In this document: positions 4,197 to 23,317 of the stretch, piece by piece
Numbering within the stretch: the first letter of the stretch is position 1
How the letters are laid out: every line of letters starts with the position of its first letter
Assembly (NCBI RefSeq): GCF_000607165.1
Contig: NZ_JFZG01000006.1
Location: 310,001-374,000 of the forward strand
DNA length: 64,000 bases
Direction: 5' to 3'
From: Ralstonia pickettii
Lineage (GTDB): Bacteria; Pseudomonadota; Gammaproteobacteria; Burkholderiales; Burkholderiaceae
Program-made: the position numbers and the translations under genes
The notes under the pieces: model-generated
Database searches by the model: none
What the model saw: only the letters and a program-made list of their open reading frames with translations
Told to the model about the DNA's origin: nothing

Positions 4197-4250
4197 GGGA
4201 ACAACACACTGATTTCATCGCTATAGAGAGATGAAGAATGTGTTGTTCCC
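4197..4250 (+). repeat. 54-bp palindromic repeat, copy 1
   Basis: Arms GGGAACAACACA (4197-4208) and TGTGTTGTTCCC (4239-4250) are perfect inverses. CTATAG lies exactly in the centre (4221-4226). The core TCATCGCTATAGAGAGATG reads on the plus strand. It lies 12 nt after the lipoprotein stop. Confidence 0.9.
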
Positions 4251-4321
4251 GCTTGCATAGCCCAGCGAATCAGCCTGCAACGATATCCACCACGGCCTTG
4301 CGTCGAGGTTGACCGAAACCT

Positions 4322-4894
4322 ATGTCCAAAATCTTTCACCTGCTGTTCGCGCTCGTCATGAGCGGCTTCATCGTCGGCATGCTCAAGCCCGCATGGATCA
4401 TGCGCAAGAGCGCGACGCCGAGTCGCAAGAAGATCGCACAAATTGCTTTGCCTGTGCTCGTTGTGACGGCCATGCTCGCCAACGTCACCCGTACCCCCGA
4501 AGAAGTCGCCCATGATCAGCAGATTGCCGAGGAAAAGGCGGCTGCCAAGCGTGAGAAGAAGGCAGCAGAAAACATCAAGCCGCCATTTCCGAACGACGTT
4601 GCAAACAAGCTCTGTTCCACCGTCGCCACCTATGTTTCCGGCATTCTCGGCTCGCGGCTACACGGCGAATCGGTCGATGTCGAGAAGTACGCCGCCCGGA
4701 TTGTTTCGGAAGACCTCGCCGGATTGCCTGCGCAGTATCGGCCCTATCAGCAAAAGCTGTTGATCCACTTCGGCACTGGCATGGAACACGATCCGAACCC
4801 TGCCGAGACGATGCAGAAGTACACGGCCAATCCAACGGGATTTCTAGCAGCACTGATGAGCGCTTGCACAAGGCAGTTGAGCGGTGCTCAGTGA
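4322..4894 (+). CDS. Hypothetical membrane protein
   Basis: 190 residues. Two hydrophobic segments lie near the N-terminus (about 5-25, IFHLLFALVMSGFIVGML, and about 38-55, IAQIALPVLVVTAMLAN). A Lys/Glu/Ala-rich stretch at about 66-85 looks like a coiled coil, and a soluble domain with two Cys follows. No family recognised. It is followed after 24 nt by a LprI-like secreted protein gene on the same strand, so the two probably share a transcript starting between repeat copy 1 and 4322. Confidence 0.6.
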   Translation: MSKIFHLLFALVMSGFIVGMLKPAWIMRKSATPSRKKIAQIALPVLVVTAMLANVTRTPEEVAHDQQIAEEKAAAKREKKAAENIKPPFPNDVANKLCSTVATYVSGILGSRLHGESVDVEKYAARIVSEDLAGLPAQYRPYQQKLLIHFGTGMEHDPNPAETMQKYTANPTGFLAALMSACTRQLSGAQ

Positions 4895-4918
4895 ATATCA
4901 ACCCCATCCAACACGATC

Positions 4919-5629
4919 ATGAAAAGCAAGTACACCATCCTCTTCGGCACAGCACTGCTCATGCTTGGCGGTGCTGCCTTCGCCGCCCCCAGCTTCGATT
5001 GTTCGAAGGCGTCGTCCAAGGTCGAAAAACTGATCTGCTCCGATAAGAACCTATCGGACACGGACGCGATGCTTGCCGAAGACTACAAAGCATTGCTTGC
5101 CACCACGGATGACAAGGGCGTGAGGCAGCGTCAGCTCACGTGGCTGAAGACTGTCCGCAATGCATGTAACGACGTGGCCTGCCTTCAGAAGGCCTACGAC
5201 GCGCGCGGCGATGAATTGATGCGCGAACGAGCACGCTCGAAGGGCGACGAAAAAGCGTTGCTGGCAGAGGCCGATGCGAAGGCTGTGCCTATGTCGACGA
5301 AGAGTGCTGGTATCCCGTCGCAATTCCAAGGCACATGGGGTGACGATGCACGGGCATGCAGCCAACTCAAGGGTGGTCTGGACACCGACAAGCTCGTTCG
5401 CGTCAAGTCCAACGAGATCGTCGGCTATGGCTTCACCTGCAAACTGCAAACCGGAACGCTCAACGGCTCGGTCTTCGACGGCAAGTTCTCCTGCGGCGAT
5501 GAGGGCGGCAACTACAACGTCGGCTACATCCTCGGATCGTCTGGCCAACGGCAATTGCAGTTGAGTACCGTGAGCAAGGGAAAGAAGTCGCCTGCCACCA
5601 ACATGACGCTTTGCACGGCGAGCCGCTAA
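4919..5629 (+). CDS. Secreted protein with LprI-like (DUF1311) N-terminal domain
   Basis: 236 residues. A Sec signal peptide (TILFGTALLMLGGAAFAA, cleavage about residue 22) is followed by a Cys-containing helical domain of the lysozyme-inhibitor LprI/DUF1311 type (about residues 26-100: FDCSKASSKVEKLICSD, LSDTDAMLAEDYKALL, QLTWLKTVRNAC). A C-terminal beta-rich domain with four more Cys follows (about 130-236). The likely location is the periplasm. LprI-type domains can inhibit lysozyme, but that activity is not shown for this protein. It ends 8 nt before palindromic repeat copy 2. Confidence 0.75.
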   Translation: MKSKYTILFGTALLMLGGAAFAAPSFDCSKASSKVEKLICSDKNLSDTDAMLAEDYKALLATTDDKGVRQRQLTWLKTVRNACNDVACLQKAYDARGDELMRERARSKGDEKALLAEADAKAVPMSTKSAGIPSQFQGTWGDDARACSQLKGGLDTDKLVRVKSNEIVGYGFTCKLQTGTLNGSVFDGKFSCGDEGGNYNVGYILGSSGQRQLQLSTVSKGKKSPATNMTLCTASR

Positions 5630-5637
5630 CTGCCATC

Positions 5638-5691
5638 GGGAACAACACAATCTCTATCTCTTTATAGTGATGAGATCGGTGTGTTGTTCCC
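5638..5691 (-). repeat. 54-bp palindromic repeat, copy 2
   Basis: Perfect 12-bp arms (5638-5649 and 5680-5691). The core reads on the minus strand as CATCACTATAAAGAGATAG, with one change (TATAAA instead of TATAGA) from the other copies. It starts 8 nt after the LprI-like gene stop. Confidence 0.9.
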
Positions 5692-5708
5692 GTCATCGAA
5701 GACGAAAC

Positions 5709-6149
5709 ATGCCCGATGACCTGTTGTCGATCACGATTGATTCGCCCGACGGCGCTGATGGCATGTTGATCTTCGATGCCACACCTGTCCGGTCGCAAAA
5801 CCCATGGAAGCCTCGTGCCACGACCATGCTTGAAACGCTTCTGAGCATGTCCCACGATCTGGAGCACGGCGCTTACGTCATCACCGAGAACGAGGATGGA
5901 TGGTTTCAGCGTGCAGGCTTCCCCGCCGAACGTTTGATCTCCCGACAAGCCGCTAGCCGTTCGCTGCGTGGCACTCGCCTATCGAGCCGGCTTCCGCCAG
6001 CCAACAGCGATCCGATGGACATCCATATGAAACGACGACGATTGCGATTCGAAGCCTGGTGGCTTCAAGTCGAACGACCCGTCATTGTCGATCTGACCAC
6101 ACGGCACCGAGAACCAGGGCACCCCGCCCTGGTTTTTTTTCGTCCATAG
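5709..6149 (+). CDS. Hypothetical protein, C-terminus read through a terminator
   Basis: 146 residues from ATG 5709; a longer frame from 5667 would start inside the palindromic repeat and is rejected. The first 90 or so residues look like a normal soluble domain (DDLLSITIDSPDGADGMLIFDA). From about residue 95 the composition becomes Arg-rich, and the last residues (HPALVFFRP) are encoded by the stem and T-tract of an intrinsic terminator. This hints at a 3' frameshift, since a neighbouring frame stops before the terminator. The N-terminal part is probably genuine; the C-terminal end is uncertain. Confidence 0.5.
   Translation: MPDDLLSITIDSPDGADGMLIFDATPVRSQNPWKPRATTMLETLLSMSHDLEHGAYVITENEDGWFQRAGFPAERLISRQAASRSLRGTRLSSRLPPANSDPMDIHMKRRRLRFEAWWLQVERPVIVDLTTRHREPGHPALVFFRP
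6112..6140 (+). terminator. Intrinsic terminator
   Basis: AACCAGGGC (6112-6120) pairs with GCCCTGGTT (6126-6134) around a 5-nt loop, followed by a run of T to 6140. A textbook rho-independent terminator, overlapping the annotated 3' end of the 5709 gene. Confidence 0.85.
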
Positions 6150-6179
6150 AACACGCACCAATCCACTCTGGAAATCGCA

Positions 6180-6509
6180 ATGCCCACCAATGACAAAGAA
6201 CCGATGCAGACCGCCATCATCATTCCGATGAAGCCGAAGCCACCGCTGTTCCCGCTCGGACAGATCGTCGCAACGCGCGGCGTACTGACGCACCTCGAAC
6301 GCGAAGGCATTACGGCCGACGGCTACTTGAATCGTCATGTGCGAGGCGATTGGGGTGATGTGCCGCCGGAAGACACCGAAATGAACCGATACGCGATCCT
6401 AGTCGGCGCACGCATCATGTCTTCGTATCAGATTGCCGGCGAGCGCGTTTGGATCATCACGGAAGCAAATCGCAGCGTCACCACGTTGCTGTTTCCGAGT
6501 GAGTATTGA
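6180..6509 (+). CDS. Small hypothetical protein
   Basis: 109 residues starting at ATG 6180, 40 nt after the terminator. The protein has a Pro/Lys segment (IIPMKPKPPLFPLGQIVAT) and a conserved-looking C-terminal beta motif (ERVWIITEANRSVTTLLFPSEY). A diverged copy of the last third of this gene lies at 7237-7336, beyond the next gene, so two homologous genes once existed here. No functional family recognised; the layout suggests a single-domain element-borne accessory protein. Confidence 0.65.
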   Translation: MPTNDKEPMQTAIIIPMKPKPPLFPLGQIVATRGVLTHLEREGITADGYLNRHVRGDWGDVPPEDTEMNRYAILVGARIMSSYQIAGERVWIITEANRSVTTLLFPSEY

Positions 6510-6513
6510 TGCC

Positions 6514-7230
6514 ATGATGACGCCCACGAGAACGCCGGAACGAATTGCAGACCTTCTGCAACAGATCCAGCACGGCATTAGCACACGCGACAACATAGCG
6601 TCGGCTGCGTTACATCAATCCGTGTCCCTTCTGAAAGCCGCGCTCCCCTTCCAGTTGCCGATACCGATTCTCACAGGGCACGTGCCGCCTACGGCAATCG
6701 GGCTTGAAGATTCACATGAGCCGTATGCCGGGATCCTCGTGCGCTGGTATAGCGAACTCGCGTCGCGTCCTACCCACAGCATTAATGTCGTGGCCGATGT
6801 CATCGTCGTGATTCGCGGAGCCGTCGATGCTTGGCTCTGGAATCTTCCCGATGGAGAGCATTCAACCTCACAGCCGCTTCGAAAGCGAAAGCACGCCGTC
6901 TCCGATTTGACCGACGCCACCATGACCAACTGGTTGTCGGCAATCACGCTGGAGCAACTGTCTGCACTGGCAACTCGATGGGATAGCAGTGGTCGTGCGA
7001 ACAACAAACCCGGCGTTCTAGAAGAACTTGGCCTGACGGCGCGATCCATGCTGGACCTACCTGATGCAGAACTACGCAGGCTGAAGTTACTGGAACGATT
7101 CGAAGCGGAAGAGAGAGAACGTAGCGCCGAACTCTGGCGATTCCTACAGGCAGATGACATCGGCAGGAAAATTGAACGTCTCACCGCTGAAGCTGCCGCC
7201 GCGTTCGTTGCAACACACGGGAAACCGTAA
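6514..7230 (+). CDS. Hypothetical protein
   Basis: 238-239 residues from the ATG-ATG pair at 6514/6517, four nt behind the previous stop, so probably translated in coupling with it. The N-terminus is helical, the middle hydrophobic (INVVADVIVVIRGAVDAWLW, about 90-112), and the C-terminus a long charged helix (DAELRRLKLLERFEAEERERSAELWRF in part) likely to form a coiled coil. No recognised family. It lies between a gene and a diverged copy of that gene's 3' end, which suggests it was inserted by recombination between homologues. Confidence 0.6.
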   Translation: MMTPTRTPERIADLLQQIQHGISTRDNIASAALHQSVSLLKAALPFQLPIPILTGHVPPTAIGLEDSHEPYAGILVRWYSELASRPTHSINVVADVIVVIRGAVDAWLWNLPDGEHSTSQPLRKRKHAVSDLTDATMTNWLSAITLEQLSALATRWDSSGRANNKPGVLEELGLTARSMLDLPDAELRRLKLLERFEAEERERSAELWRFLQADDIGRKIERLTAEAAAAFVATHGKP

Positions 7231-7236
7231 CGGCAC

Positions 7237-7336
7237 GCGCATCCTCTCGTCGTATCAGATTGCCGGTGAACGTGTATGGATCATCACGGAAGCCGATCAA
7301 AGCGTCACGACGTTGCTGTTTACAAGCGAGTATTGA
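7237..7336 (+). pseudogene. 3' fragment of a paralogue of the 6180 gene
   Basis: This stretch encodes RILSSYQIAGERVWIITEAD and the ending SVTTLLFTSEY, then a stop, and aligns without gaps to the last 33 codons of the 6180-6509 gene. I count about 16 mismatches in 99 nt, most of them silent, so it is an older homologous allele, not a recent copy. It has no start of its own. Confidence 0.7.
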
Positions 7337-7375
7337 CCTGATCGCCGCGAAACCTAGTCCACGGGTCGGTCTGAC

Positions 7376-8283
7376 CTATCGGAGAATAGCCCCAAGATCT
7401 GGTACCCGGTCGCGACAACGCAAGAAGGCCAGAATCGAAGCCGGCGGACACCGCAATCCGCCCTGCATGTCTGCGGTGAAAATCAACGCTTCCCGAATCT
7501 GATTGCGGGCAAGATCCGCGTCACTGCAACATTCTCCATAAAGCCGAGATGTGCCGCAGCCGCAATATTCGCCTACACGCAATTCGAGAATCCGCTCGTA
7601 GGCATGACGTACTGCTTGATGCCCCGGCCATCGACCGAAAGCCCTTAGGTGAAGATGCCGGACCGCCCACAACGTGTATAAATCAAGCAACACAACAAGC
7701 GGGTCCGTGACAGCCCAGGTGCCGTCCGTTGGCTCAAATGCGCAGATTGACCCGTCAGGGAAATTGGTATGACGAGGGCCAATCCATTCGTACCCAATCG
7801 CCTGAGTCCCCAGAAACCCCAACCTCGAACCAAAGTGTCGGCGAACCGTATTGCCACGATGAAGACGGCTTTGTGAGAAAACCCCGGCAGCAGCGAACTC
7901 TCGACGATGAGCCACATGCCATCGTCATCGAGCCAGTGCCGCACACCGGGGTAAGCCTGCTGCACTGCCTTTAGCTCGTTCGCAAACTTGCTGCGAAGCT
8001 CTGAGACGACGAGCGATGTGGCGGGACGTGGCGCCCCGGATCCGGCGTATGACCATGCTCCGAATGATGGCCGTGGTCGGTCGGATGCCCATGCTTGTGG
8101 TCGTGATCGTGCTTCGGTTCTTGCTTTTCCTGGTTTGACATGATTCAACTCCGCGCCCAGGGTTCGAGGAGAAATGGCGGGATTGCTGGGCACTACAATC
8201 CCCCCATTTTTTACAACCGGGAACAGCGATGCATCCAACTGCTCACCGATTCGACGTAACTCAAACAGCACATCGTCCCGCAT
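7376..8283 (-). pseudogene. Frameshifted remnant of an E2-like/Cys-rich (ubiquitin-like pathway) gene
   Basis: ATG 8283 has a good GGAGAAA site. The frame runs through RSKFANELKAVQQAYPGVRHW and SHKAVFIVAIRFADT, then must shift by one base near a C4 tract (7817-7820, G4 in the coding strand) to continue as GFLGTQAIGYEWIGP, NFPDGSICAFEPTDGTW, LDLYTLWAVRHLHLRAFGRWPG and a Cys cluster CGCG...YGECC. That tail resembles Cys-rich proteins associated with prokaryotic E2-like ubiquitin systems. Another frame at about 8142-8010 reads a His-rich start (MSNQEKQEPKHDHDHKHGH), typical of multiubiquitin-type proteins, so two genes may have been fused by deletion. The family assignment is from memory and moderate. 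Confidence 0.5.
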
Positions 8284-8493
8284 AACGTTTCTCCTTGGCC
8301 GGAGGTCTGTAACCGCACCGGCATGGAGCGTCGCTGGCTCGACTCCAACTCCTACCGAATGACTGAGCAACTCGAAAGGGGCTCGCCCTCCCGAGTCCTT
8401 CGTGCTACACTGAACTTGTCGACTTCGGCAAGTTCGACTTTACTGTAGCGGCAGTTTCCGTTTGTGTCAACATAGACTTTACGTTTTCGACAA

Positions 8494-8841
8494 ATGCAAG
8501 ATTCCAGCCGCAAGCTGTTCGCACAGCGTTTGCGCCACGTGCGAGAAGATGTTCGCAAGCTCACCCAGGCAGACCTCGGCCGCTTGTGCAATTTGCCCGC
8601 AACTTCGATTTCCCATTTCGAGAAGGAAGATGGGACGCGGAAGCCCTCTTTCGACAACCTCCGAGCCTTGGCAAAGGCCCTCGATGTCACCACCGACTAC
8701 CTGCTAGGTAGAACCGATGACATGCTCGGGAACACGCTGCTTGACGAGAAGCTGTATCGTGACGTGAAATCTTTGAGTGAGGCCGACAGACAGATCGCTG
8801 AAAACCTCATCAAACAACTGGCAGCACTCAAACGCTCATAG
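8494..8841 (+). CDS. XRE-family regulator (ImmR-like)
   Basis: 115 residues. A Cro/CI helix-turn-helix lies at about residues 10-68 (LTQADLGRLCNLPATSISHFE, then LRALAKALDVTTDYLLGRTD). A short helical C-terminal segment, residues 85-115, probably mediates dimerisation. It is followed 8 nt later by an ImmA/IrrE-type metallopeptidase, the arrangement of repressor/antirepressor pairs in ICEBs1-like elements. The upstream region holds AACTTG...CAAGTT and repeated GACTTTAC motifs (about 8415-8485) that could be its operators. The role as element repressor is inferred from this pairing. Confidence 0.88.
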   Translation: MQDSSRKLFAQRLRHVREDVRKLTQADLGRLCNLPATSISHFEKEDGTRKPSFDNLRALAKALDVTTDYLLGRTDDMLGNTLLDEKLYRDVKSLSEADRQIAENLIKQLAALKRS

Positions 8842-8849
8842 GAGCCGAC

Positions 8850-9704
8850 GTGATTGAGCGAAAGCTACGGGATGCCGAGCAGGTTGCTGAAAAGATTGTG
8901 CGCGACGAAGGCCTTACTCTGCCGATCGATGTGCTATCACTTGCGGCGAGCAGAGGCATCCACGTAGTTGCCAAGCCTGCCAGTGCGCAAGGCGTGTCGG
9001 GCATGCTCATTCGATCTGGCGAGCAATTCGCTATCGCATATGCCACGCACATTAGGAGCGAGGGATTCCAGCGCTTTAGCATTGCACACGAGCTTGGTCA
9101 CTACTTCCTCGACGGACACCCCGAAGCCGTATTCCGGGGCGGCGATATCCATGAGTCTAGAGCCGGCTTTGACTCGCCCGACCAGTACGAGTTGGAGGCG
9201 GACCACTTTGCTGCGGGCCTCCTGATGCCGAGTCACCTTTTTGATGTCGCCGCAGGTCGATATTCCGATGGTCTGGAAGCGGTTAAAGGCCTAACAGGCG
9301 ACTGCAAGACTTCGTTGACCGCATCCGCCATCCGATACGCGCAACTGACCGAGGCCGCAGTTGCGATCATCGTAAGTCATGGGTCGACAGTCGACTACTG
9401 TTTTGCATCGGAATCCATGCGCCGGGTGAAGGGGTATCGCCACTTGAAAAAGGGTGCCGTCCTTCCTCGGCAATCGTTAACGCGCGAATTCAACCAAGAT
9501 CGTAAAAACATCGAATCCGCGAGCGAAAGCGACGACAGCACAGAATTGAATTTCTGGTTCCATACAGACGACGAAATTGATGCGTCAGAGGAAGTGATCG
9601 GGTTGGGGGATTACGGGAAGACGCTGACGGTCATAACAGCCGACGTCCCCGACAACGGGGAACATACTGAGCGCGACTGGCAAGCACCGCGTTTTAAGTA
9701 TTGA
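8850..9704 (+). CDS. ImmA/IrrE-type metallopeptidase
   Basis: 284 residues from GTG 8850 (AGGAG just upstream). The zinc-peptidase motif HELGH lies at residues 80-84, and a third ligand is offered by YELEADHFA (about 113-121), as in the ImmA/IrrE (COG2856) family. A C-terminal extension of about 130 residues is charged and unassigned. In known systems such enzymes cleave the neighbouring XRE repressor after DNA damage or other signals and so derepress the mobile element. Here it probably acts on the product of the 8494 gene, with which it is co-transcribed. Confidence 0.88.
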   Translation: MIERKLRDAEQVAEKIVRDEGLTLPIDVLSLAASRGIHVVAKPASAQGVSGMLIRSGEQFAIAYATHIRSEGFQRFSIAHELGHYFLDGHPEAVFRGGDIHESRAGFDSPDQYELEADHFAAGLLMPSHLFDVAAGRYSDGLEAVKGLTGDCKTSLTASAIRYAQLTEAAVAIIVSHGSTVDYCFASESMRRVKGYRHLKKGAVLPRQSLTREFNQDRKNIESASESDDSTELNFWFHTDDEIDASEEVIGLGDYGKTLTVITADVPDNGEHTERDWQAPRFKY

Positions 9705-9788
9705 AGTGTCCTGCGCCCCATAAAGAGCTAGACGTACCCGGCCACCACACCCGCACATACACCGATGGAACGATGGTTACAATATCTT

Positions 9789-9843
9789 CGATGAGGACTC
9801 ATCGTGTTCAGCTATGATCCGATCTTCAAAACACCGATGAGGA
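9789..9843 (+). promoter_or_regulatory. Candidate anti-Shine-Dalgarno switch in the H-NS-like gene leader
   Basis: CGATGAG (9789-9795), CTCATCG (9798-9804) and CGATGAG (9835-9841) occur in order. The middle segment is complementary to both outer ones, and the third contains the Shine-Dalgarno sequence of ATG 9850. The leader could therefore switch between a hairpin that leaves the site free and one that covers it. The first pair is also a perfect DNA palindrome that a protein might bind. Confidence 0.4.
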
Positions 9844-9849
9844 TTAGAC

Positions 9850-10137
9850 ATGGCGACGTACAAGGAACTGTTGGCTCAAAAGGCAAAGCTGGAAGAGCAA
9901 CTTGAAGGCGCTCGCGTCAAAGAGCTTGAAGCGGTGATCCAGCAGGTCCGTCAGATCGTTGAAGAGTACGGTCTGACCGCAGAAGACATCGGCTTCGCGT
10001 CGAAGCGTGGCAGTGCGAGCAAGAAGAAAACTGTCGCGCCGAAGTACCAAGACCCGAAAACCGGAGCCACCTGGACCGGTCGTGGTCGTGCTCCAGCATG
10101 GATCGGCAAGAACCGTGACAAGTTCTTGATTGCTTAG
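9850..10137 (+). CDS. H-NS-family nucleoid-associated protein
   Basis: 95 residues. An N-terminal coiled-coil oligomerisation region (about 1-45) is joined by a basic linker (SKKKTVAPK) to the H-NS DNA-binding motif KYQDPKTGATWTGRGRAPAW (about 62-81). Length and layout match the H-NS-like proteins common in Ralstonia and Burkholderia genomes and on their plasmids. It probably silences AT-rich island genes by binding in the minor groove through the GRGR loop. The leader contains a possible translation switch (9789-9843). Confidence 0.92.
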   Translation: MATYKELLAQKAKLEEQLEGARVKELEAVIQQVRQIVEEYGLTAEDIGFASKRGSASKKKTVAPKYQDPKTGATWTGRGRAPAWIGKNRDKFLIA

Positions 10138-10152
10138 TTTGCGGGGCTGTGT

Positions 10153-10185
10153 AGCATGGCCCACTGCCTCGGGCCAGGCCATGCT
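10153..10185. terminator. Hairpin behind the H-NS-like gene
   Basis: AGCATGGCC (10153-10161) and GGCCATGCT (10177-10185) are perfect 9-bp inverses around a 15-nt loop, 16 nt after the stop. No T-tract follows, so intrinsic termination is possible but not certain. Confidence 0.4.
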
Positions 10186-10300
10186 CGTAGTTACGATATG
10201 CGAGCCAAACATTGGTTCACAGAAGTAGTGCCCGAGAAACTGAAGGCGGACTCTCAGCAACGGAGTTAAGCATCGCCTATTTTAGGCCGCTGAACCTACT

Positions 10301-11374
10301 TCAGGCATCAAAAAATTCCTCCATAATCTGGAAGGAGAGTTGGACTTGGGTTTGCTCTGGGGCGAGCTGCGGTGCAATTTCTTCATCGAACAGCTTCTTC
10401 GTATTCTTCAACTCTCCATCAGTATAGATCAAGCACATAACGGAGTGTTCTTTGAAGTAAGCGCGATGCTTCTTCATCTCCTTCGCAAAGTTGTCCGCAG
10501 CCATCTCGTTAATTTTCTTCTGAGTCAGCCCTCCAATTTTTGAGAGGTACCCATGCGTAGACCATGGCGACAGCTCGAATCCAATCTTATCTAGCGTGTA
10601 AGGATTGACAACGAGAAAATCCAGGCGGTAGACATGCTTCTTCTCAAGTCCAGCGTATCTGAATTCTGGAATCAAGAGTGGAACCGAGCTTGGATCAGCT
10701 TGCTTTCGCACGTAGTCGCAGTAGTGATCGGCGATTTCATACTCATACTTGGACCCCGAATTTCTGACCAAAGTGTCTTGAAAGAATAGTAGATATTGAT
10801 CAACATCACTAAACTTGAAGATTTTATCCTTACCTGGTATTACAAGGCCTGTCGTCATTACATGACCGATCGTCCAGTACGCTTTTTTGAATGACCTTAT
10901 TTCGCTCTTATCGTTCTCCCATCGACCGTTTTTGAATCGCGGACTTACAAGAAGACCATAGTTCGCGTTCTCTTGTCCGATCCACAACTCCGCCTCTTCC
11001 ACTTCTGGACGACTCTTCGATAGCTCATCGAAGTGCTTGAGATAAGATCGCTTCAAAAACAGTACCGTGTACTCCCGAAATTTCTTGAATTTCTTGAGGC
11101 GCTTCCAGATCCAAAGATGCGCATCAACTCCATCTTCGAGCGCACTGCGCTTCAGGCCATCCAGCCACCGAGAAACGAATTCCTCCTGGCTATGTATTAC
11201 GTCATTTTTTAGATCAAAGAACTCATCGTTCTTGCTTCCGATAGTCGCATTCAACGACTGCTCGCCTTCAAGGCCGATCTCGTCGAGAACGTCCGGAAGC
11301 AGATCCCGCAGCTTCAGTTTGATTGAAGCAATCATCCTGTTTCGTGCCGTCTTGTTGGGGTCTCGCTTGGCCAA
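10301..11374 (-). CDS. Hypothetical protein, possible nuclease-like C-terminal domain
   Basis: 357 residues from TTG 11374, chosen because AAAGGAG lies 5 nt upstream; the longer frame to 11497 has no such site. The protein is charged and aromatic. The C-terminal part contains YRLDFLVVNPYTLDKIGFELSPW and later MCLIYTDGELKNTKKLFDEE. The D...E pattern on adjacent strands is compatible with a PD-(D/E)XK-type fold, but no canonical motif is complete. Codon use is clearly more AT-rich than the chromosomal right half, which suggests separate acquisition. A stand-alone defence effector is a guess. Confidence 0.6.
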   Translation of the reverse strand: MAKRDPNKTARNRMIASIKLKLRDLLPDVLDEIGLEGEQSLNATIGSKNDEFFDLKNDVIHSQEEFVSRWLDGLKRSALEDGVDAHLWIWKRLKKFKKFREYTVLFLKRSYLKHFDELSKSRPEVEEAELWIGQENANYGLLVSPRFKNGRWENDKSEIRSFKKAYWTIGHVMTTGLVIPGKDKIFKFSDVDQYLLFFQDTLVRNSGSKYEYEIADHYCDYVRKQADPSSVPLLIPEFRYAGLEKKHVYRLDFLVVNPYTLDKIGFELSPWSTHGYLSKIGGLTQKKINEMAADNFAKEMKKHRAYFKEHSVMCLIYTDGELKNTKKLFDEEIAPQLAPEQTQVQLSFQIMEEFFDA

Positions 11375-11626
11375 GGTATCTCCTTTGAGGCTAACGCCGA
11401 AAATGTGCCGGTGACTGGTGAAAGGCGAAGCCGTGGAGCGCCGCGGGGTGCCCAGGGCGGTCGGCCTACTAGACTGCATTTGCATTATGAGGCCCATTTT
11501 CCGCCCTGGGAGTAACGAACCTCGACCATCAACGCGCCAACTGTCCGCACGAACACCCGCACCGTGCGGGGCAGACAGCCAGCCTCCACCTGTTCATCAA
11601 CACAGAACTAACCCGGATATAGACAT

Positions 11627-15863: not shown

Positions 15864-15957
15864 GTTACGGAACTCGCCACATCCCCATCTGGAGCAAGAT
15901 TCTCATGTGGAGCGAGGCTTCGCGCAACCACTTCCAACCTTAAAGGAGAACATCGAA

Positions 15958-16059: not shown

Positions 16060-16152
16060 TCTGGACCGCCCAGGCTGCCGTTAGGGACAAAATTCGAAGC
16101 CTGCCGATATGTAGCTATTGCCCTCGGACCAGGCTATCTCTGGTGGCTCGAT

Positions 16153-16206
16153 GGGAACAACACCCACTCCATCTCTCTATAGTGATGAGGTCGGCGTGTT
16201 GTTCCC
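16153..16206 (-). repeat. 54-bp palindromic repeat, copy 4
   Basis: Arms GGGAACAACAC and GTGTTGTTCCC are perfect over 11 bp. The core reads CTCATCACTATAGAGAGATGG on the minus strand. It starts 93 nt after the 33-residue protein stop and 121 nt before the next start, so it is the copy farthest from a gene end apart from copy 3. Confidence 0.9.
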
Positions 16207-16327
16207 GCTCCTCGTTGATCATCTCCACACCCCACCTCAGAAGGCCGCGGGCCACGCGAGCCAATAGAATACCGGGGCCGCTGCGTTGCCATTGTCAGCA
16301 CGCAGCCATCTGAAACCCACCGGACCC

Positions 16328-17134
16328 ATGACCTCGCCCACCGCTACGCCAGACGACTCGGACAGCAAGTTTGATCTCTCCACCCTGCCTGACGAAGTGA
16401 TACACATGCTTCTCGTCACGGAATGGCTCAAATGCTTTCGGACGAATCCTGACTTCAAGGCATATTGTGAGGCGAAGCGGACAGCCGATGCGGGAACGTG
16501 TGCCGCATTGGAGGCAACCCACGCACGAATCGCGGAACTCTACGAAGACTGGGGCGACATCCATGTCCTGTCCTCGTTGCAAGAGGAAGGCGTCTTCATG
16601 GACTGGTTTGCAGAGAAGCAGCATCTGTTCACCTTGCCGAAAGCAACAGTAGCCGATCCTATCGAATGGCTGGCGGAGCCGGAAGGCACTACATTGGTTG
16701 TCATCCCGAACGGACTCAGGAAGGAACAGCTTCTGCAAGTGCTCACCGACTTCGTGTCAAACCACCCCGAGTTACTTGGTGATGGCCCGAAGTACGAAAT
16801 CACACCGGTCAAGGGTGAACGCCAAGTAGACACGCTGAAAAGACTCCATCGAGCACGCACGGTGTATCTCGCGCTGGCCATCGGGAAACTAGGCGCTGTC
16901 AAAAATGCATCAGCCCAGGCGGCCAAGTCCATCCTCAGAACCGAGGGAGCGAACCGAGTATTGCGCTTCAACTGGTTCGTCCACGGAGAGGTGAATAAGA
17001 AGCTGCTTGAACAAGACAAGCTGCCCGCCGATGAACTGAAGGACTACACACGCACCATCGGCAATCTCGACAAGTTCTATCGGGCGTGCATTGACAGCAC
17101 GATTCGCGGCGTCTTCCCTGCCACGACGAAGTAG
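16328..17134 (+). CDS. Hypothetical soluble protein
   Basis: 268 residues from ATG 16328; an in-frame TTG at 16286 would add 14 residues, and neither start has a strong ribosome site. The protein is helical and charged, with several conserved-looking Trp/Phe positions (GDIHVLSSLQEEGVFMDWF, ANRVLRFNWFVHGEVNKKLLE). No membrane segment, no recognised family. It ends with an intrinsic terminator 24 nt downstream, so it is a separate transcription unit from the H-NS-like gene that follows. Confidence 0.65.
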   Translation: MTSPTATPDDSDSKFDLSTLPDEVIHMLLVTEWLKCFRTNPDFKAYCEAKRTADAGTCAALEATHARIAELYEDWGDIHVLSSLQEEGVFMDWFAEKQHLFTLPKATVADPIEWLAEPEGTTLVVIPNGLRKEQLLQVLTDFVSNHPELLGDGPKYEITPVKGERQVDTLKRLHRARTVYLALAIGKLGAVKNASAQAAKSILRTEGANRVLRFNWFVHGEVNKKLLEQDKLPADELKDYTRTIGNLDKFYRACIDSTIRGVFPATTK

Positions 17135-17157
17135 CAAGCCCACCTGCCATAGACAAG

Positions 17158-17190
17158 AGCCCAGAGATCGAAAGGTCTCTGGGCTTTTCC
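17158..17190 (+). terminator. Intrinsic terminator
   Basis: AGCCCAGAGA (17158-17167) pairs with TCTCTGGGCT (17176-17185) around an 8-nt loop, followed by TTTTCCTTTT. It terminates the 16328 gene. Confidence 0.85.
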
Positions 17191-17318
17191 TTTTCTACGG
17201 CTACCACAAGACCCTCACTTCCGCAAGTGAAGGGCACTGATCCCTGCTCTTCGCCATCTGTTCGGCCTCGCGGAATCAGTATTCGTCCTGCCGATTCACT
17301 AACACACAGGAGGACGAA

Positions 17319-17945
17319 ATGGCACTGAATGAAATCACCCAAGAATTCGATGAGATCGCCCAGAAGCGCGCCGCGCTGGAAGCGGAACTGAACAGCCTGA
17401 CGAAGCATGAGGAAGAAGCCAAGGCACACATGCATGCCAATGTGGTTTCGCAAGTGCAGGGGTTGGTCGACTACTTCCAGATCGCCCGTGACGAACTGAC
17501 TTTCACTGCGCCGCTCAAGCTTGTTCCCCGCTTCCTCAACCCCGAGACCGCCGACACATGGCATGGCTTCGGCAAGCGTCCTGACTGGATCAACGACGAC
17601 AACATCGACGAGTACCGCATCAAGCCGCAGAAGAAGGGCAAGAAGACCAGCACGAAATCGAGCACTAAGAAGGCCCAGCAAGCGAAGTCGAAGACGACGC
17701 AGCCTGTGACCGAACAGGTCGAGGCCGACAACGCGGCGGCAACCGGGGCGGACATCAGCACCAACGCACCATCGGAAGCCACATCGCCTACCGCAATCAT
17801 CGCCGCGCCGGAAAGCACTGCCGCTGTCAGCGAACTCACCCAGCGCCCCGTCGGCACGACGGCTGCCCAACCCACCGTCGCTCACGGCTTCTCCCTGATG
17901 GCCGGTGGCGTCCAGAGCTATCTGGCAGCAGTGAAGGCCAGCTAA
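17319..17945 (+). CDS. H-NS-like protein with Lys/Ala-rich C-terminal extension
   Basis: 208 residues behind an AGGAGG site. An N-terminal coiled coil (about 5-50) is followed by RFLNPETADTWHGFGKRPDWI (about 70-90), a divergent version of the H-NS DNA-binding motif in which the usual GRGR loop is GFGKR. A long low-complexity tail follows, first Lys/Thr/Ser-rich (about 100-125), then Ala/Thr/Pro-rich. This resembles H-NS-like silencers extended by a basic tail that binds DNA without sequence preference. Probably an island-encoded chromatin protein. It ends 22 nt before repeat copy 5. Confidence 0.75.
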   Translation: MALNEITQEFDEIAQKRAALEAELNSLTKHEEEAKAHMHANVVSQVQGLVDYFQIARDELTFTAPLKLVPRFLNPETADTWHGFGKRPDWINDDNIDEYRIKPQKKGKKTSTKSSTKKAQQAKSKTTQPVTEQVEADNAAATGADISTNAPSEATSPTAIIAAPESTAAVSELTQRPVGTTAAQPTVAHGFSLMAGGVQSYLAAVKAS

Positions 17946-17967
17946 CGCAGCGAATCGCTCCCCGCAC

Positions 17968-18021
17968 GGGAACAACACGTTGATCTCAACACTATAGAGA
18001 GAAAGAAAGTGTGTTGTTCCC
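17968..18021 (+). repeat. 54-bp palindromic repeat, copy 5
   Basis: Arms GGGAACAACAC and GTGTTGTTCCC are perfect over 11 bp. The core CTCAACACTATAGAGAGAAAG reads on the plus strand; ACACTATAGA matches the SP6 promoter core. It starts 22 nt after the H-NS-like gene stop. Confidence 0.9.
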
Positions 18022-18080
18022 GTCCGCGACGAATGAAGCAGGAAGCCTTACCCAAAACCAACCTTTAAAGGAGAAAGATC

Positions 18081-19319
18081 ATGACGATCAATACGACAAA
18101 CATTGCACAAGATCTGGCAGACCGCGATGCATTCGCACAGAATTTCATCAAAGTTGCGCAGCAGAACGGCATTGACCATTCGCTGACCTACGACAAAGAC
18201 AAGTTCGCCATCGATGTGGGCGTTTCGTCCGGGCACCTGACGCAGAATCTGTGGAACGTCTACACGGAATACCGCGCCTCTCGTGGCAGCAATCGCAAGC
18301 GCATCCTGACCAACTATGTTCTCGGCCTCAAGGGAACACTGAAAATTCAGGAGTTGCCGAACCTGCCGTTCAGTGACGTTCGCAAAGCGTTGCGCCCGCA
18401 GGTTCGCTCCAAGAGCCTCACGGACAACGAACGCTACGAATTCAAGGGCGAAGACCTCAGCCAATTCGAGCCGACGCCTCGCCAGCCGTTCAGCACCGAC
18501 GCGAATATCCTGCTTGCCTACGATGAGGGCGGAACCATCATGCATGTCGGGCAATCGATGCTGGACTCGTGGGGCGTTTCCTTCTCCGAAGCACTCGACA
18601 TCGCGTTGAAGAATCTGGCCGCCATCTCTCGCCCGCGATTCAAGGAGATCAAGTCGGGGCTCTTCACTGGCGAATGGAACGACTACTACGACGATTCGCG
18701 CTTGCTTCTGCCCAAGCTGTTTTCCGAGTACCGTCACTTTGACGATCCGGTGATCATGATTCCCACGAGCGGACGCATCTTCATCGCGGACAAGGCAAAG
18801 CGCCGCGCCCAGCTTGACATGCTCTACTTCGTTGGCAAGGAGTTTGAGACCTCCATGAAGGTCGTCTCGACCCAGATGTATCACTTCGTTGATGGCAAGC
18901 CGACCGAGTACGCGCCGGAGGATGACCAAGTCTTGCGCAAGCTGAATGAAATCCGCAAGCCGCTGCTTCAAAAGTACGCCCAGCAGCAGAAAAAGGTTGT
19001 CGAAAAGCATCTCATCGGGACAGACAACCGGGCCTACTTCTATTCCCTCCAACTTGCTCGCAAGGAAGACCGCCCGACCGCAAGCGTGAGCATCTGGTCC
19101 GCCGATATGGAATGCATCTTCCCAGAGGCCGACTTCATCGTCGTATCCAAGGCGACGAAAACCGACGACGGTTATCTCGTGCACCACGACCCGGTCCTGC
19201 CTTGGAACGATGTGATCGAGAAGTACGGGCATCTGCTGCAAAAGCTTGATGGTTTCCCGAACCTCTATCGGGCCGCACCTTTCGTGGATGCCAACACGGT
19301 GTTAGCCGAGGCTGCCTAA
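18081..19319 (+). CDS. Hypothetical protein, weakly DUF1444 (YtpQ)-like
   Basis: 412 residues, with a strong leader CCAACCTTTAAAGGAGAAAG before ATG 18081. The N-terminal 90 residues are helical. The central part (LLAYDEGGTIMHVGQSMLDSWGVSFSEALDIALKNL, about 142-178, cited in pieces) has the pattern of DUF1444/YtpQ proteins, but the match is from memory and weak. No membrane segment or catalytic motif is evident. The gene lies alone between palindromic repeats 5 and 6, one of three single-gene units between consecutive repeats in this stretch. Confidence 0.65.
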   Translation: MTINTTNIAQDLADRDAFAQNFIKVAQQNGIDHSLTYDKDKFAIDVGVSSGHLTQNLWNVYTEYRASRGSNRKRILTNYVLGLKGTLKIQELPNLPFSDVRKALRPQVRSKSLTDNERYEFKGEDLSQFEPTPRQPFSTDANILLAYDEGGTIMHVGQSMLDSWGVSFSEALDIALKNLAAISRPRFKEIKSGLFTGEWNDYYDDSRLLLPKLFSEYRHFDDPVIMIPTSGRIFIADKAKRRAQLDMLYFVGKEFETSMKVVSTQMYHFVDGKPTEYAPEDDQVLRKLNEIRKPLLQKYAQQQKKVVEKHLIGTDNRAYFYSLQLARKEDRPTASVSIWSADMECIFPEADFIVVSKATKTDDGYLVHHDPVLPWNDVIEKYGHLLQKLDGFPNLYRAAPFVDANTVLAEAA

Positions 19320-19334
19320 CCGCAGGGGACAGGC

Positions 19335-19388
19335 GGGAACAACACACCAATCTCAACACTATAGAGAGATAGGAATTGTGTTGTTCCC
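19335..19388 (+). repeat. 54-bp palindromic repeat, copy 6
   Basis: GGGAACAACACA at the left; the right arm TTGTGTTGTTCCC matches over 11 bp. The core CTCAACACTATAGAGAGATAG reads on the plus strand. It starts 15 nt after the stop of the 18081 gene. Confidence 0.9.
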
Positions 19389-19456
19389 GTTCGCCGGGGC
19401 AAAGCCATTAGGCAGGAAGTTGCCACATCAAATTTCGAAATCAATAAGGAAGAATC

Positions 19457-20104
19457 ATGGAATGCACGAACACTGAAGTGCAGGCAAATCAATGTGCTGA
19501 GGCTATTGATGCCTCTGACACATCGGCCACCACTCCCCTCACCACAGACAGTCTGCACACTCCCATGGCGGCGGGCGGTGATGATGAACCTGACCCGTGC
19601 CCTGCCTGCGGCGCGCGGGTCATGCATCAGAGCCATGAACAAAGGATGGACGACTGGCTCGGCATCGGCGAGACGGAGCACTGCTCCTTGTGTGGAGCGG
19701 ACTACGAGCACTCAGCACCTTCGTGCAAAAAGCCTTTGTCCGAATGGACAATTCCAAGGCTGCTGGAGACTGCGCGCACGGTCGATCGTGCCTATGACGT
19801 ATCTATCGGCAAGCGGATGACGCAGGAGCAGGTGGACCAAAACCGAGAATACTTCAAACGTCTGGTTACGGCCCTCGCTGCGGCGAACCCCCATCACATC
19901 GAGCACCGCGTGGAGAAATTCGCGGCCAAGGAGCGCTGGCTCGCATTGCGTATCGAGGCCGCGGGGTTGTACGACGAACTGCGCGGAACGCCGGGCGCTG
20001 GCCGGATGTTCCTCAAGTACGTTTCGGGTGACTACAGCGCGGATGAGCTTGCCGAGGTGATCGCCGACCTCAAACAAGAACTTGCGGAGGCCAAAGCTGC
20101 ATAG
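19457..20104 (+). CDS. Zinc-ribbon-type hypothetical protein
   Basis: 215 residues. The first 45 are low-complexity Thr/Ala/Asp. A four-Cys zinc ribbon follows (CPACG at about 48-52 and CSLCG at about 77-81), then a helical C-terminal half with a charged end (ELAEVIADLKQELAEAKAA). The ribosome site AAGGAAGA precedes ATG 19457. It is alone between repeats 6 and 7 and directly upstream of the replication protein unit. It could be a DNA- or RNA-binding accessory protein of the element, but this rests only on the zinc ribbon and its location. Confidence 0.65.
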   Translation: MECTNTEVQANQCAEAIDASDTSATTPLTTDSLHTPMAAGGDDEPDPCPACGARVMHQSHEQRMDDWLGIGETEHCSLCGADYEHSAPSCKKPLSEWTIPRLLETARTVDRAYDVSIGKRMTQEQVDQNREYFKRLVTALAAANPHHIEHRVEKFAAKERWLALRIEAAGLYDELRGTPGAGRMFLKYVSGDYSADELAEVIADLKQELAEAKAA

Positions 20105-20114
20105 CGCATGCCCC

Positions 20115-20168
20115 GGGAACAACACCCAACCTACATCACTATAGAGAGATGGAGATTGTGTTGTTCCC
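20115..20168 (+). repeat. 54-bp palindromic repeat, copy 7
   Basis: Arms match over 11 bp. The core ACATCACTATAGAGAGATGG on the plus strand is the closest of all copies to a T7 promoter core (TCACTATAGGGAGA): 13 of 14 positions. It starts 10 nt after the stop of the 19457 gene and lies 190 nt before the replication gene start. Confidence 0.9.
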
Positions 20169-20358
20169 GTTGCCCGAAGACCGATAAATACCCTTAAACG
20201 CAAGAGCAACCTGCCCAGCATCACCGCTTCGCGTCGTTACCTCCTACATCAATGATGCCGTGGGTTGCACCTTGCTTCAGTCGTCTTGGTAACACGACTC
20301 AAACAGCGAAGCGGAATCCACCCCAGAGATTCCGCGCACATAACAAAAAAGGAATCTC

Positions 20359-23256
20359 ATGCAACTCAAACGACCAATTGCCGTCAATCGGCATTTCATC
20401 GACAAGCTCGACAACAACGACTCGGAACAGAAGCGCATTCTCACTCACGAGTTTGAGAACCTAGAGCTGACGCCTGACGAACTGGTTGCCTTCATCAATG
20501 ATGGCTATCCCTTCTGCGCTCAGCATAAAGGTGGAAGGAAAGAACCGAACTTCATCTGCTCCGGCTATCTGGCCGTTGACATCGACGATGGCGTGACTGT
20601 CAGCGAGGCATTGGACAATCCATATGTCCGGCAATACGCATCCTTCCTCTACACCACACCGTCTCACACGCCGGAGAAGCATCGTTTCCGGCTCGGCTTT
20701 CAACTGGAACACCCCATCACCGATGCTCAGAAGATGCGAGCGGCATATATTGGAGCCATTCGTCTCTTTGGTGGCGATGGCTCCTGTAAAGACGCATGCC
20801 GTCTCTTCTTCGGTAGCAAGGGGAGCAATCCCATCGTCCTCGGCAACATCCTGCCAACTGCCGAACTCGACAAGCTGATCATGTTAGGCAGCGAAGTCCG
20901 CGTGAACGATTCCAATGGTGACCCCGAGGGCAAGACGACATGGGCGCCTGTTGGCAATCGCTCCAAAATCTCCCTCGATAGAGATCAGCTCGTCCGGCTG
21001 AAGAATGGCGGCATGGCTGCACTGCAAGAGCTGAATGCGCGCACTCCGATTCACTGCCCTGTTCACTTGGATCGCAATCCCAGTGCCATGGTGACCATCA
21101 ACAGGGACGGCAAGCGTGGTGTGTTTTGCAGCAGGTGCGTGAACACTTTCTGGCCAGAAGACCCGGCCCGTGCACGGCATTCCCATCATGACTTCAATCG
21201 GATCGCTGACGCGGTGCGTCAACTGGCACATGAGGAATTCCCGTACCACCACGATGACCTGTACAACGTCGATGACGCGGACAACCTGATCGAGCCGACG
21301 CCGGAAGATATCTCTGACTGGCAAAGCCTGCTTGCCGGCCGCGTTCACGTCGTGCATCACGACAAGTTCCTGCCGGACCGGTCACTTCAACCCGGCGTGG
21401 CCTTCGTCCGCAGCCGGAAAGGGTCCGGCAAGAGCGAGCAACTGAAGCTCATTAGCCGCCAGTGTAAAGAACGCGGTCAATCCATGGTGCTGTTCGGGCA
21501 CCGGCAATTGTTGCTTCTCGACTTGGCCAATCGCCTTGACCTGACTCCGTACATCAAATCCGAGGACGGCAAGGTGAAGAACAATCACCCCACTGACCGC
21601 TACGCCATCTGCGTGGACAGCATGTGGAAGCTTCTGAAACCCCATATTCACAAGTACGACGTAGTGATCGTCGATGAGGCCGAACAGGTATTCAGTCACA
21701 TCGCGGCGGCTGACACGCTTGGTCCGAAGCGCCGTCACTGTTACGAACTGCTCTGCTATTACTTGCGCTATGCCAAATCAGTCGTCCTGTGTGACGCCGA
21801 TCTCGGCACGATCACCGTGGAAGCCATGAAGCAAGTCATCGAGGATGAGACGTCCTATCGCTTCTACCTCAACGACTATCGCCCGACAGAGAAGCAATAT
21901 GACCTCTACGCGGACGAAAACCATCTGGTCACTGACATGCTGACGGCAATCGGCAACGGTGGGCGGCACTACGTGGCGACAAATTCGAAGCGCAAGGCGG
22001 AGAAGCTTCATGCCGCGATCACCTCTACATACCCCGACAAGAAGGCCATGCTGGTCACGGCTCAACGCGACCCCGAGGCGTCCATACAATACTTCGTCGA
22101 CAACATCAAGACGGAAATCCTGAACTACGACGTGGTCATTGCTTCGCCGACCCTGGGCACTGGCATCGACATTACCTTCGACAACGAGACGCAGGAGATC
22201 GATACCGTGTTCGGCTTCTTCGTGTCGCGGGTCAACACGCACTTCGACATGGACCAGCAGTTGGCTCGTGTCCGCCACCCCAAGGCCGTGAAGGTCTGGG
22301 TGACACCCGAACGGTTCAATTTCGAAACCGATCCGTCTGCCATCGAAGCCGAACTGATCCTGTGTCGCAACCTGAATGACATGATCACGGGTTACAAGCG
22401 CGACGGCACCCCCGAGCTCGATGAGTTCTTCCTGAAGGTCTATTCGCACGTGGCTGCAACTCAGCGCGCTTCGAAGAACGCCTTGCGCCATCACTTCATA
22501 CAGTTGCGCAAGCAAAATGGCTGGACGACAAATGTGATCGAGCGCTCGATTGATGCATCGAAGGAAGGTGCGACACAGATGAAAGAAGCAACGGCGCTGA
22601 TCGAAGGCAACCGGATCGACGGCATTTGCAACGCGACGCCCGTCAGTGCTGAGGAATATCGAGAACTGGCCAACTTCGAGAAGATAAAGTCCATCGCGCC
22701 TGTCGATGCTCACTCTATGCGGCACTACGAGTTGACATCGTTCTACTGCAAGCCAGTGGATGCCGATCTGGTCAAGCTGGATGACCATGGGAAGTTTCGT
22801 GATCGCATCCGGCTGGCCGAGGTGTATTTCTCTCCGATGTGGTCAGCCGTCAGCCGCAGCCGCCGCTTCGATGACGAGAGTGTTCTCGCTCCCGACGCAG
22901 CGATGCTGCCCCTGAAACGCGACTTGCTGCAAAGGCTTCTCACCTCGGCAGGATTGGCCGACAAAACCAACGCAATCAAATGCGATGTTTCTCTCAAACA
23001 GGCGGACCTGAAGCGCTTCGCAGAGGCCTACCGAAACAATGCAACGACCATGGAGCAGATGTTTGGGTTGGCACCTCGTGGTGACTTGGATCGGAACCCG
23101 ATGCAGAGTTTGACACCAGTTCTCAAGCTGATCGGTTTGTCGACGAAGAAATCGGCGAACTACAAAGTCGAGAAAGGCCGTGTGCGTGAATATCAGGTCG
23201 ATCCGGCCTCCGTGGCGCTCGTCAAGGAGATCATCGAACGCCGGGCCTCCCGCTGA
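20359..23256 (+). CDS. Primase-helicase replication protein (AEP primase plus SF2 helicase)
   Basis: 965 residues. The N-terminal domain (about 1-165) looks like an archaeo-eukaryotic-type primase: DID in YLAVDIDDG (Asp74, Asp76), SHTPEKHRFRLGF (about 102-114) and CKDACRLFFGSKG (about 143-155). A Cys/His zinc site follows (HCPVH at about 232 and CSRC at about 257). The C-terminal half is a superfamily 2 helicase: Walker A GSGKS (about 355), DEAE box VIVDEAEQ (about 436-443), and QQLARVRH as motif VI. The helicase resembles herpesvirus-type origin-binding proteins and the CyRepA1-like plasmid replication proteins. It probably opens and primes the element's origin. The gene is alone between repeats 7 and 8. 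Start ATG 20359 follows AAGGAATCTC. Confidence 0.82.
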   Translation: MQLKRPIAVNRHFIDKLDNNDSEQKRILTHEFENLELTPDELVAFINDGYPFCAQHKGGRKEPNFICSGYLAVDIDDGVTVSEALDNPYVRQYASFLYTTPSHTPEKHRFRLGFQLEHPITDAQKMRAAYIGAIRLFGGDGSCKDACRLFFGSKGSNPIVLGNILPTAELDKLIMLGSEVRVNDSNGDPEGKTTWAPVGNRSKISLDRDQLVRLKNGGMAALQELNARTPIHCPVHLDRNPSAMVTINRDGKRGVFCSRCVNTFWPEDPARARHSHHDFNRIADAVRQLAHEEFPYHHDDLYNVDDADNLIEPTPEDISDWQSLLAGRVHVVHHDKFLPDRSLQPGVAFVRSRKGSGKSEQLKLISRQCKERGQSMVLFGHRQLLLLDLANRLDLTPYIKSEDGKVKNNHPTDRYAICVDSMWKLLKPHIHKYDVVIVDEAEQVFSHIAAADTLGPKRRHCYELLCYYLRYAKSVVLCDADLGTITVEAMKQVIEDETSYRFYLNDYRPTEKQYDLYADENHLVTDMLTAIGNGGRHYVATNSKRKAEKLHAAITSTYPDKKAMLVTAQRDPEASIQYFVDNIKTEILNYDVVIASPTLGTGIDITFDNETQEIDTVFGFFVSRVNTHFDMDQQLARVRHPKAVKVWVTPERFNFETDPSAIEAELILCRNLNDMITGYKRDGTPELDEFFLKVYSHVAATQRASKNALRHHFIQLRKQNGWTTNVIERSIDASKEGATQMKEATALIEGNRIDGICNATPVSAEEYRELANFEKIKSIAPVDAHSMRHYELTSFYCKPVDADLVKLDDHGKFRDRIRLAEVYFSPMWSAVSRSRRFDDESVLAPDAAMLPLKRDLLQRLLTSAGLADKTNAIKCDVSLKQADLKRFAEAYRNNATTMEQMFGLAPRGDLDRNPMQSLTPVLKLIGLSTKKSANYKVEKGRVREYQVDPASVALVKEIIERRASR

Positions 23257-23263
23257 GACCGAT

Positions 23264-23317
23264 GGGAACAACACACCTCTCTTCTCTCTATAGTGACGAG
23301 ATCAGTGTGTTGTTCCT
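23264..23317 (-). repeat. 54-bp palindromic repeat, copy 8
   Basis: GGGAACAACACA at the left and TGTGTTGTTCCT at the right, one mismatch at the last base. The core reads CTCGTCACTATAGAGAGAAG on the minus strand. It starts 7 nt after the replication gene stop, the tightest spacing of all copies. Confidence 0.9.

Follow-up and report, generated by a model that had tools for sequence, protein, structure and literature searches.

The 64,000-nt stretch of Ralstonia pickettii DNA analysed here (contig NZ_JFZG01000006.1, positions 310,001 to 374,000; hereafter the window) contains a genomic island with eight dyad-symmetric repeats of 54 bp dispersed among its genes, and we propose, with a probability of about 0.6, that these dyads are recognition (i.e., origin-type) sites of the island's own CyRepA1-type replication initiator, the product of a gene termed here rep. 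The eight copies are real and element-specific, and the established part of this reading comprises the sites themselves, their association with rep, and a site sequence that changes with Rep clade. We read the dyads as docking sites for Rep because related rep genes elsewhere often have a comparable site adjoining them.

A sequence-only reading of the window had listed eight copies, four on each strand and six of them starting just behind a stop codon, and all were found where it placed them, four on plus and four on minus, with the six lying 12, 8, 22, 15, 10 and 7 nt 3' of a stop (Table 1). Among random intergenic placements in positions 1-24000, 5.9% fall no more than 22 nt behind a stop, which gives a binomial P of about 1e-6 for a gene set chosen by the analyst. 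The motif GGAACAACAC was seen 14 times on both strands of 35 kb vs 0.08 times expected by chance, and a chance origin of the repeat family is negligible. Also borne out was the confinement of the copies to the island: a covariance model built from the eight window copies (R1), run over the whole 5.75-Mb genome, returned these eight and one weak place (E 0.036; 150 of the 363 candidates were scored).

Each dyad consists of two inverted half-sites (GGGAACAAC in the window, GG(T/G)(G/A)NNAAC in relatives) flanking a core of about 30 bp that has a lower G+C content and an asymmetric centre, and the core is shared among the copies of one element with few changes (CACTATAGAGAGATG in the window, CAGTATAGAGATG in the related element of Paraburkholderia lycopersici). 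The invariance first ascribed to this core has to be relaxed somewhat: CTATAG is exactly central in seven of the eight copies, the one at 5638 having TTATAG on the plus strand, and the 18-mer CATCACTATAGAGAGATG given for the surroundings of the centre is exact in only three. In our alignment A2, the nine pairs of arm positions are complementary in 95.3% of cells, four of the nine show both-sided changes, and covariation exceeds that of all 500 shuffles, a pattern equally compatible with a protein that binds symmetrically and with pairing in a hairpin. Such pairing, together with the placement behind stop codons, would suit transcription ends or 3' RNA hairpins, an explanation that we nevertheless consider very improbable: the 15 nt beside the arms contain no T-tract, no terminator was called at any of the eight copies (in a scan restricted to loops of 3-8), four copies lie on each strand, the core is conserved as sequence, and there are copies upstream of rep in Bradyrhizobium and in genomes G520 and G599 (G and L numbers are our handles for genomes and loci). 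The initial preference for protein recognition over a terminator, based on the conserved core, the lack of T-tracts and the use of both strands, thus stands. Modest evidence from G775 and G1157 also leans towards recognition of half-sites rather than of a hairpin, in that both halves keep GGTGNNAAC in five copies, of which only two still pair at arm positions 5-6; these five had been found without a pairing criterion, and copies found later, which presuppose symmetry or the half-site, are not counted. The three of these five copies that have lost pairing at positions 5-6 also led us to prefer half-site recognition to hairpin priming of the ssi type, again on modest evidence.

The proposed reader of the sites matches the CyRepA1 model NF042913 at 348.7 bits (curated cut-off 200), and there are matches to this type of Rep in 435 records of plasmids and 61 of phages. 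Its N-terminal domain carries a VDID and SH..RFR motif pair, which we take to be archaeo-eukaryotic primase-like, followed by a C..H..C..C cluster and an SF2-type helicase. A profile of eight Reps matched structures of the herpesvirus protein UL9 with E-values of 2.6e-15 to 1.1e-14 across positions 335-505, which hold the helicase motifs, and gave no convincing structure match for the N-terminal domain. Among 30 open reading frames (ORFs) of the window, rep is the only one with matches in all 11 other regions compared.

A search for Rep in 398 genomes of the family found matches in 11, the window's own genome included. The distance from the rep stop to the dyad behind it is 7 nt in the window, 11 nt in P. 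lycopersici, 10 nt in G775, 14 nt in G317, and 28 nt in both G629 and G010. An origin element of the pRN1 or OriS type would be expected to adjoin its initiator gene across relatives, and a dyad no more than 65 nt behind the rep stop was found in 12 of 20 rep loci by inspection and in 10 of 20 mechanically, in keeping with the early suspicion of a link to the primase-helicase gene. The mechanical test scored dyads within 65 nt behind a stop and took as controls 352 ORFs outside the four site-rich elements: with at least nine arm matches, 10 of the 20 rep loci scored positive vs 44 of the 352 controls (P 1.1e-4), with at least ten, 6 of 20 and 21 of 352, and with at least eleven, 6 of 20 and 13 of 352 (P 1.9e-4). 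Among 183 other ORFs from the regions that hold these four elements, 27, 19 and 14 were positive at the three thresholds, and the sites of G775, G629 and G010 fail the test. The Legionella fallonii locus was excluded from the 20, its Rep being 93% identical to that of L. antarctica, and the two Legionella Reps were treated as one lineage; the rep loci of G294, G481 and G882 were left without a dyad assignment. In three rep loci found once the pattern had been formulated (two in G1152, one in G1203), rep is followed by a dyad at 39, 61 and 3 nt, that of G1203 being detected only with the span limit raised from 61 to 65. Candidates had been chosen by a dyad self-comparison of 18 regions, which was noisy and served no other purpose.

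The type of site tracks the Rep clade, as seen in the pairs window/P. lycopersici (Reps 63% identical), G775/G1157 (48%), G520/G599 (76%), G629/G010 (73%) and G524/G631 (90%). In G775, whose Rep is 42-44% identical, there are three dyads of another sequence, the first of them behind rep, and the numbers in G1157, G1231 and G1154 are four, one and one. Two Legionella plasmids with CyRepA1 have one GGGAACA dyad each (core TATATAGAGATC), 176 nt behind rep, and the Legionella arm pattern had no match in five other plasmid records, namely those of Bradyrhizobium and Nostoc, which carry CyRepA1, and three of Legionella, none of which showed a CyRepA1 gene (one was covered for 40 of its 65 kb). In G524 and G631 (loci L077 and L075), two inverted dyads (arms AAAAGGCAGA, core TATATAGAA) lie about 210-230 bp apart upstream of rep and are 95-98% identical within an element. 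The dyads beside CyRepA1 genes in Paraburkholderia, other family members, Legionella and Bradyrhizobium are homologous or analogous to those of the window; those of G524, G631, G520, G599, G028, G938, G1152 and G1203 share the layout and are no more than candidate homologues of the window type.

Table 1. Positions of the dyads, the island and the genes discussed in the text (window coordinates).
Feature	Position	Strand	Remarks
Dyad copy 1	4197..4250	+	54 bp; starts 12 nt 3' of the stop of 2838-4184
Dyad copy 2	5638..5691	-	54 bp; centre TTATAG on the + strand; starts 8 nt 3' of the stop of 4919-5629
Dyad copy 3	14722..14774	-	53 bp, one arm degenerate; 48 nt behind a minus-strand stop at 14823
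Dyad copy 4	16153..16206	-	54 bp; between two gene starts; in P. lycopersici the counterpart, strand unchanged, precedes the 282-aa gene
Dyad copy 5	17968..18021	+	54 bp; P. lycopersici counterpart before the 412-aa gene
Dyad copy 6	19335..19388	+	54 bp; P. lycopersici counterpart behind the 412-aa gene
Dyad copy 7	20115..20168	+	54 bp; without counterpart in the P. lycopersici element, like the 215-aa gene 19457-20104
Dyad copy 8	23264..23317	-	54 bp; 7 nt 3' of the rep stop, a place occupied in many other CyRepA1 loci
rep, 965-aa CyRepA1-family protein	20359..23256	+	NF042913 match; proposed reader of the dyads
282-aa protein, family not assigned	16286..17134	+	homologous proteins encoded in four related elements; second candidate reader after Rep
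HTH repressor, 120 aa	1734-2096		
Tyrosine recombinase, 197 aa	11627..12220	-	identity to the enzymes of five other elements 79-82%; not taken to be the reader
41-bp dyad AATGTTTATAAA..TTTCTAAACATT	12233..12273		in front of the tyrosine recombinase gene; in 6/6 elements with this recombinase
Large serine recombinase, 588 aa	33106..34872	-	integrase at the right end of the island
Island in window	1..34945		reaches about 0.9 kb beyond the window on the left, up to the continuation of the host UDG-like gene; position of the right end approximate

A scan for the arm pattern in a one-genome-per-species collection gave four loci, one of them that of P. lycopersici; by eye the core is present only in L025, and the other three score 22-26 bits with R1. 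In the P. lycopersici genome, R1 found four copies, all within a syntenic element in which a dyad again stands behind the homologue of the 965-aa gene. The window copies at 16153, 17968, 19335 and 23264 have counterparts there, that of 23264 in the opposite orientation, and the unit 19389-20168, consisting of the 215-aa gene and the copy at 20115, is missing from between two conserved positions. A copy number that ranges from 1 to 8 and a copy inverted at the same place are what a mobile palindromic repeat of MITE or REP type, sitting in these elements by chance, might leave behind; yet neither genome contains further copies and the site sequence changes along with Rep clade, which makes this explanation extremely unlikely. 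Wide occurrence in core genomes, named at the outset as the finding that would count against a link to replication or recombinase genes, was likewise not seen in the genomes searched.

The missing unit also bears on the possibility that the dyads are recombination sites bounding integron-like gene cassettes, moved by the 197-aa tyrosine or the serine recombinase, since the sites do bound gene-sized units and their distribution across genomes tracks the tyrosine recombinase (P 1.4e-6; see below). We consider this improbable. The tyrosine recombinase keeps the same level of conservation (79-82%) between elements with very different 54-bp sites, and all six elements found with it have a different conserved dyad of 41 bp in front of its gene, which is likely its own site or operator; the constancy of the enzyme and the possession of its own dyad make it an unlikely reader. 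(The dyad near this gene is also written AATGTTTATAAA..AAACATT.) Similarly, the serine recombinase is an unlikely reader because it diverges while the arms stay alike: between the window and P. lycopersici it is 37% identical, compared with 63% for Rep and 82% for the tyrosine recombinase, and the arms are nearly the same. An att site of this large serine recombinase should diverge with the enzyme and was rejected on that count. Copies moreover point both ways, and the arm pattern occurs just once in each of the two Legionella plasmids. Cassettes had been an early idea of ours, dropped in view of the different dyad of the tyrosine recombinase and of sites that change with Rep. Integron attC sites have outer boxes RYYYAAC and GTTRRRY and a single orientation relative to genes; the arms GGGAACAAC and GTTGTTCCC do not fit these boxes, four copies lie on each strand, and attC was rejected. 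A protelomerase target, which needs a protelomerase gene and a fully palindromic centre, was rejected as well: the centre is asymmetric, and the protelomerase family is absent among the ORFs scanned. Of the link to recombinases that the sequence-only reading had proposed, the association by genome distribution thus stands (tyrosine recombinase, 4/5 vs 1/139) but not the role of these enzymes as readers of the dyads (41-bp dyad in 6/6; serine recombinase 37%).

Another protein of the element could also be the reader, the dyads then being operator, stoperator or centromere sites of the 120-aa HTH repressor, of the 282-aa protein or of a partition protein that escaped detection, and scattered in the manner of phage silencing sites or dispersed centromeres. 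A scatter of copies behind stop codons would be in keeping with a silencing or partition role; the 282-aa protein, present in the window, P. lycopersici, G775, G1157 and G1154, shows the same ranking of divergence across these five elements as the sites do (59, 46 and 31-32%); and genes of ParA/ParB type adjoin rep in the Legionella rep loci. However, comparable dyads adjoin rep in Legionella, Bradyrhizobium, G317, G629 and G010, and a homologue of the 282-aa protein was not found in the regions of the last three or, for Bradyrhizobium and Legionella, which were covered by a plasmid search only, among plasmids; the protein has no Pfam match. Dispersed partition centromeres of the N15 type have ParA and ParB encoded alongside, whereas a Pfam scan of 30 island ORFs found neither domain. 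We regard recognition by such a protein as unlikely.

We also used a second model, R2, of 19 sites. Over 557 kb of other loci, it found four places at E up to 5: a Bradyrhizobium dyad 69 nt before rep, which lies outside the training set and ranked first (E 0.0027), a 23-base hairpin in G520 (E 0.0039), the G1154 site (0.03) and a dyad behind rep in G938 (0.2). As a negative control, 160 viral-contig loci chosen by two loose motif patterns (80 of 119 stretches from one, 80 of at least 120 from the other) gave one R2 match, at E 0.18. Within the window, R2 has a weak match at 30408-30460 (E 0.03), beside the stop of an Mrr-like gene, that may be due to chance or be a decayed ninth copy. Among 144 Paraburkholderia genomes, five have R2 sites at E 0.01, namely three of the eight with CyRepA1 vs two of the 136 without (G1231 and G634; P 0.001). 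Searches yielded no match at E 0.01 for R1 in 100 relatives under stricter filters, and no useful match for the 54-mer in plasmids and phages, for near-identical DNA in plasmids, or, in viral contigs, for the arm pattern or for rep, the recombinase and the 412-aa protein.

Several of these results weigh against Rep as the reader of the dyads. The same 144 genomes divide more sharply by tyrosine recombinase, R2 sites occurring in four of the five with it vs one of the 139 without (P 1.4e-6); R2 was trained on those tyrosine-recombinase elements, and the comparison favours the recombinase by design, but despite this bias the distribution still speaks against a strict link to Rep. Two genomes illustrate this: G1231 has a single site and the tyrosine recombinase, and no CyRepA1 was found in it, while G634 has a lone site (L357, 1501-1553) with perfect 10-bp arms (GGTGACAACT), and neither CyRepA1 nor the tyrosine recombinase was found in that Paraburkholderia genome. 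In G1154, the sole such site lies behind an integrase gene, and repeats of another kind lie behind its rep. Eight of the 20 rep loci (G1157, G520, Legionella, Bradyrhizobium, G524, G631, G1154 and G816) have no such site within 65 nt behind rep; in the first six a dyad lies farther off or upstream, and the G816 locus has none. The mechanical positive in Legionella is a dyad other than its GGGAACA site. R1 found no match in 22 other fetched loci, and R2, even with E allowed up to 5, does not detect the dyads beside rep in Legionella, G317, G629, G010, G520 and G599, so that their kinship to the window type is judged from position and visual alignment. Finally, the core, with a G+C content of 0.40 vs 0.55 for the island, is only mildly AT-rich.

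If the dyads are nonetheless Rep sites, the copy directly behind the rep stop would likely be the ancestral one, acting as an origin-type site at which Rep would bind both boxes, melt the core and start priming. The other seven copies would then be additional Rep sites, placed where they do no harm and for the most part behind genes, and might serve as further origins or priming sites, or in titration or coupling of Rep. We regard the rep-adjacent dyad as a putative origin-type site because of its analogy with UL9/OriS and with pRN1. OriS of herpes simplex virus (HSV) differs in its box sequence and in a spacer shorter than the core of the window dyads, UL9 is without a primase part, and the virus has two OriS and one OriL vs eight dispersed copies here. 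Shared with the window are inverted boxes around a spacer, AT-rich in OriS, and an SF2 helicase, UL9, which binds those boxes and whose motifs match this Rep (PMC12543377). In pRN1 of Sulfolobus, the stem-loop that the plasmid requires, and that works when relocated, lies directly downstream of the primase-helicase gene orf904, just as a dyad lies directly behind the initiator gene in the window (PMC4234260). The pRN1 stem-loop is, in contrast, about 100 nt long, conserved in structure and not in sequence, present in a single copy and paired with an SF3 helicase, and no specific binding of Rep to it was detected in that study (PMC4234260). The ssiA and ssiB sites of RSF1010 are likewise hairpin sites read by a plasmid primase; however, they are primer-start signals of 40 nt, one per strand and not dispersed (PMC4434180). 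The Synechocystis plasmid pSYSA has a Rep of the same family (NF042913), and the accessible parts of its literature implicate a region upstream of rep with an RNA pair and describe no dyad behind rep (PMC9978351, PMC10899382, PMC10079941). As far as the passages retrieved in our literature searches go, work on CyRepA1 has located an origin in a single cyanobacterial plasmid, within its rep region, and describes no such dyads, nor did we meet there an arrangement of eight copies dispersed between the genes of an integrated element. Phage P4, which has a second repeat region (crr), differs in having iterons at its origin instead of single 54-bp dyads and a primase of Toprim type. Its alpha protein resembles the proposed role of Rep, in that a single protein binds repeats, unwinds and primes (PMC4234260).

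By extension, bacterial UL9-like Reps might read OriS-like origins, in which two inverted boxes flank a spacer that melts, some integrated elements carrying up to eight of them between genes and thereby being able to start or prime replication at many places, an idea that we offer as speculative and unlikely. If true, such a common plan of origins would suggest that UL9-like helicases of bacterial plasmids and of herpesviruses inherited their way of recognizing origins from one ancestor. How the system compares with UL9 and OriS is directly testable, and the rep-adjacent dyads of many proteobacterial CyRepA1 loci provide a concrete origin candidate for this Rep family.

The island itself is set apart by composition, the G+C content of the copy-bearing segment being 0.548 vs 0.651. 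A host UDG-like gene is split, with its first codons at 35057-34923 and the remainder about 890-1280 bases before the window, which points to the insertion of an element of roughly 36 kb into this gene. The island has a complete UDG-like gene of its own at 32613-33116, overlapping the serine recombinase gene, and its cargo includes Mrr-like and FRG-domain proteins. In G1154 (L106, L107), CyRepA1 appears to be split into primase-like and helicase genes, and direct repeats of 89 bp, unlike the dyads, are present, the closer one lying 6 nt 3' of the stop. The P. lycopersici element (L037, right flank L036) appears to be inserted in a comM-like gene, its flank having been judged by eye. A second partial 3' piece of a UDG gene, 3.8-3.9 kb before the window, hints at an older or tandem insertion.

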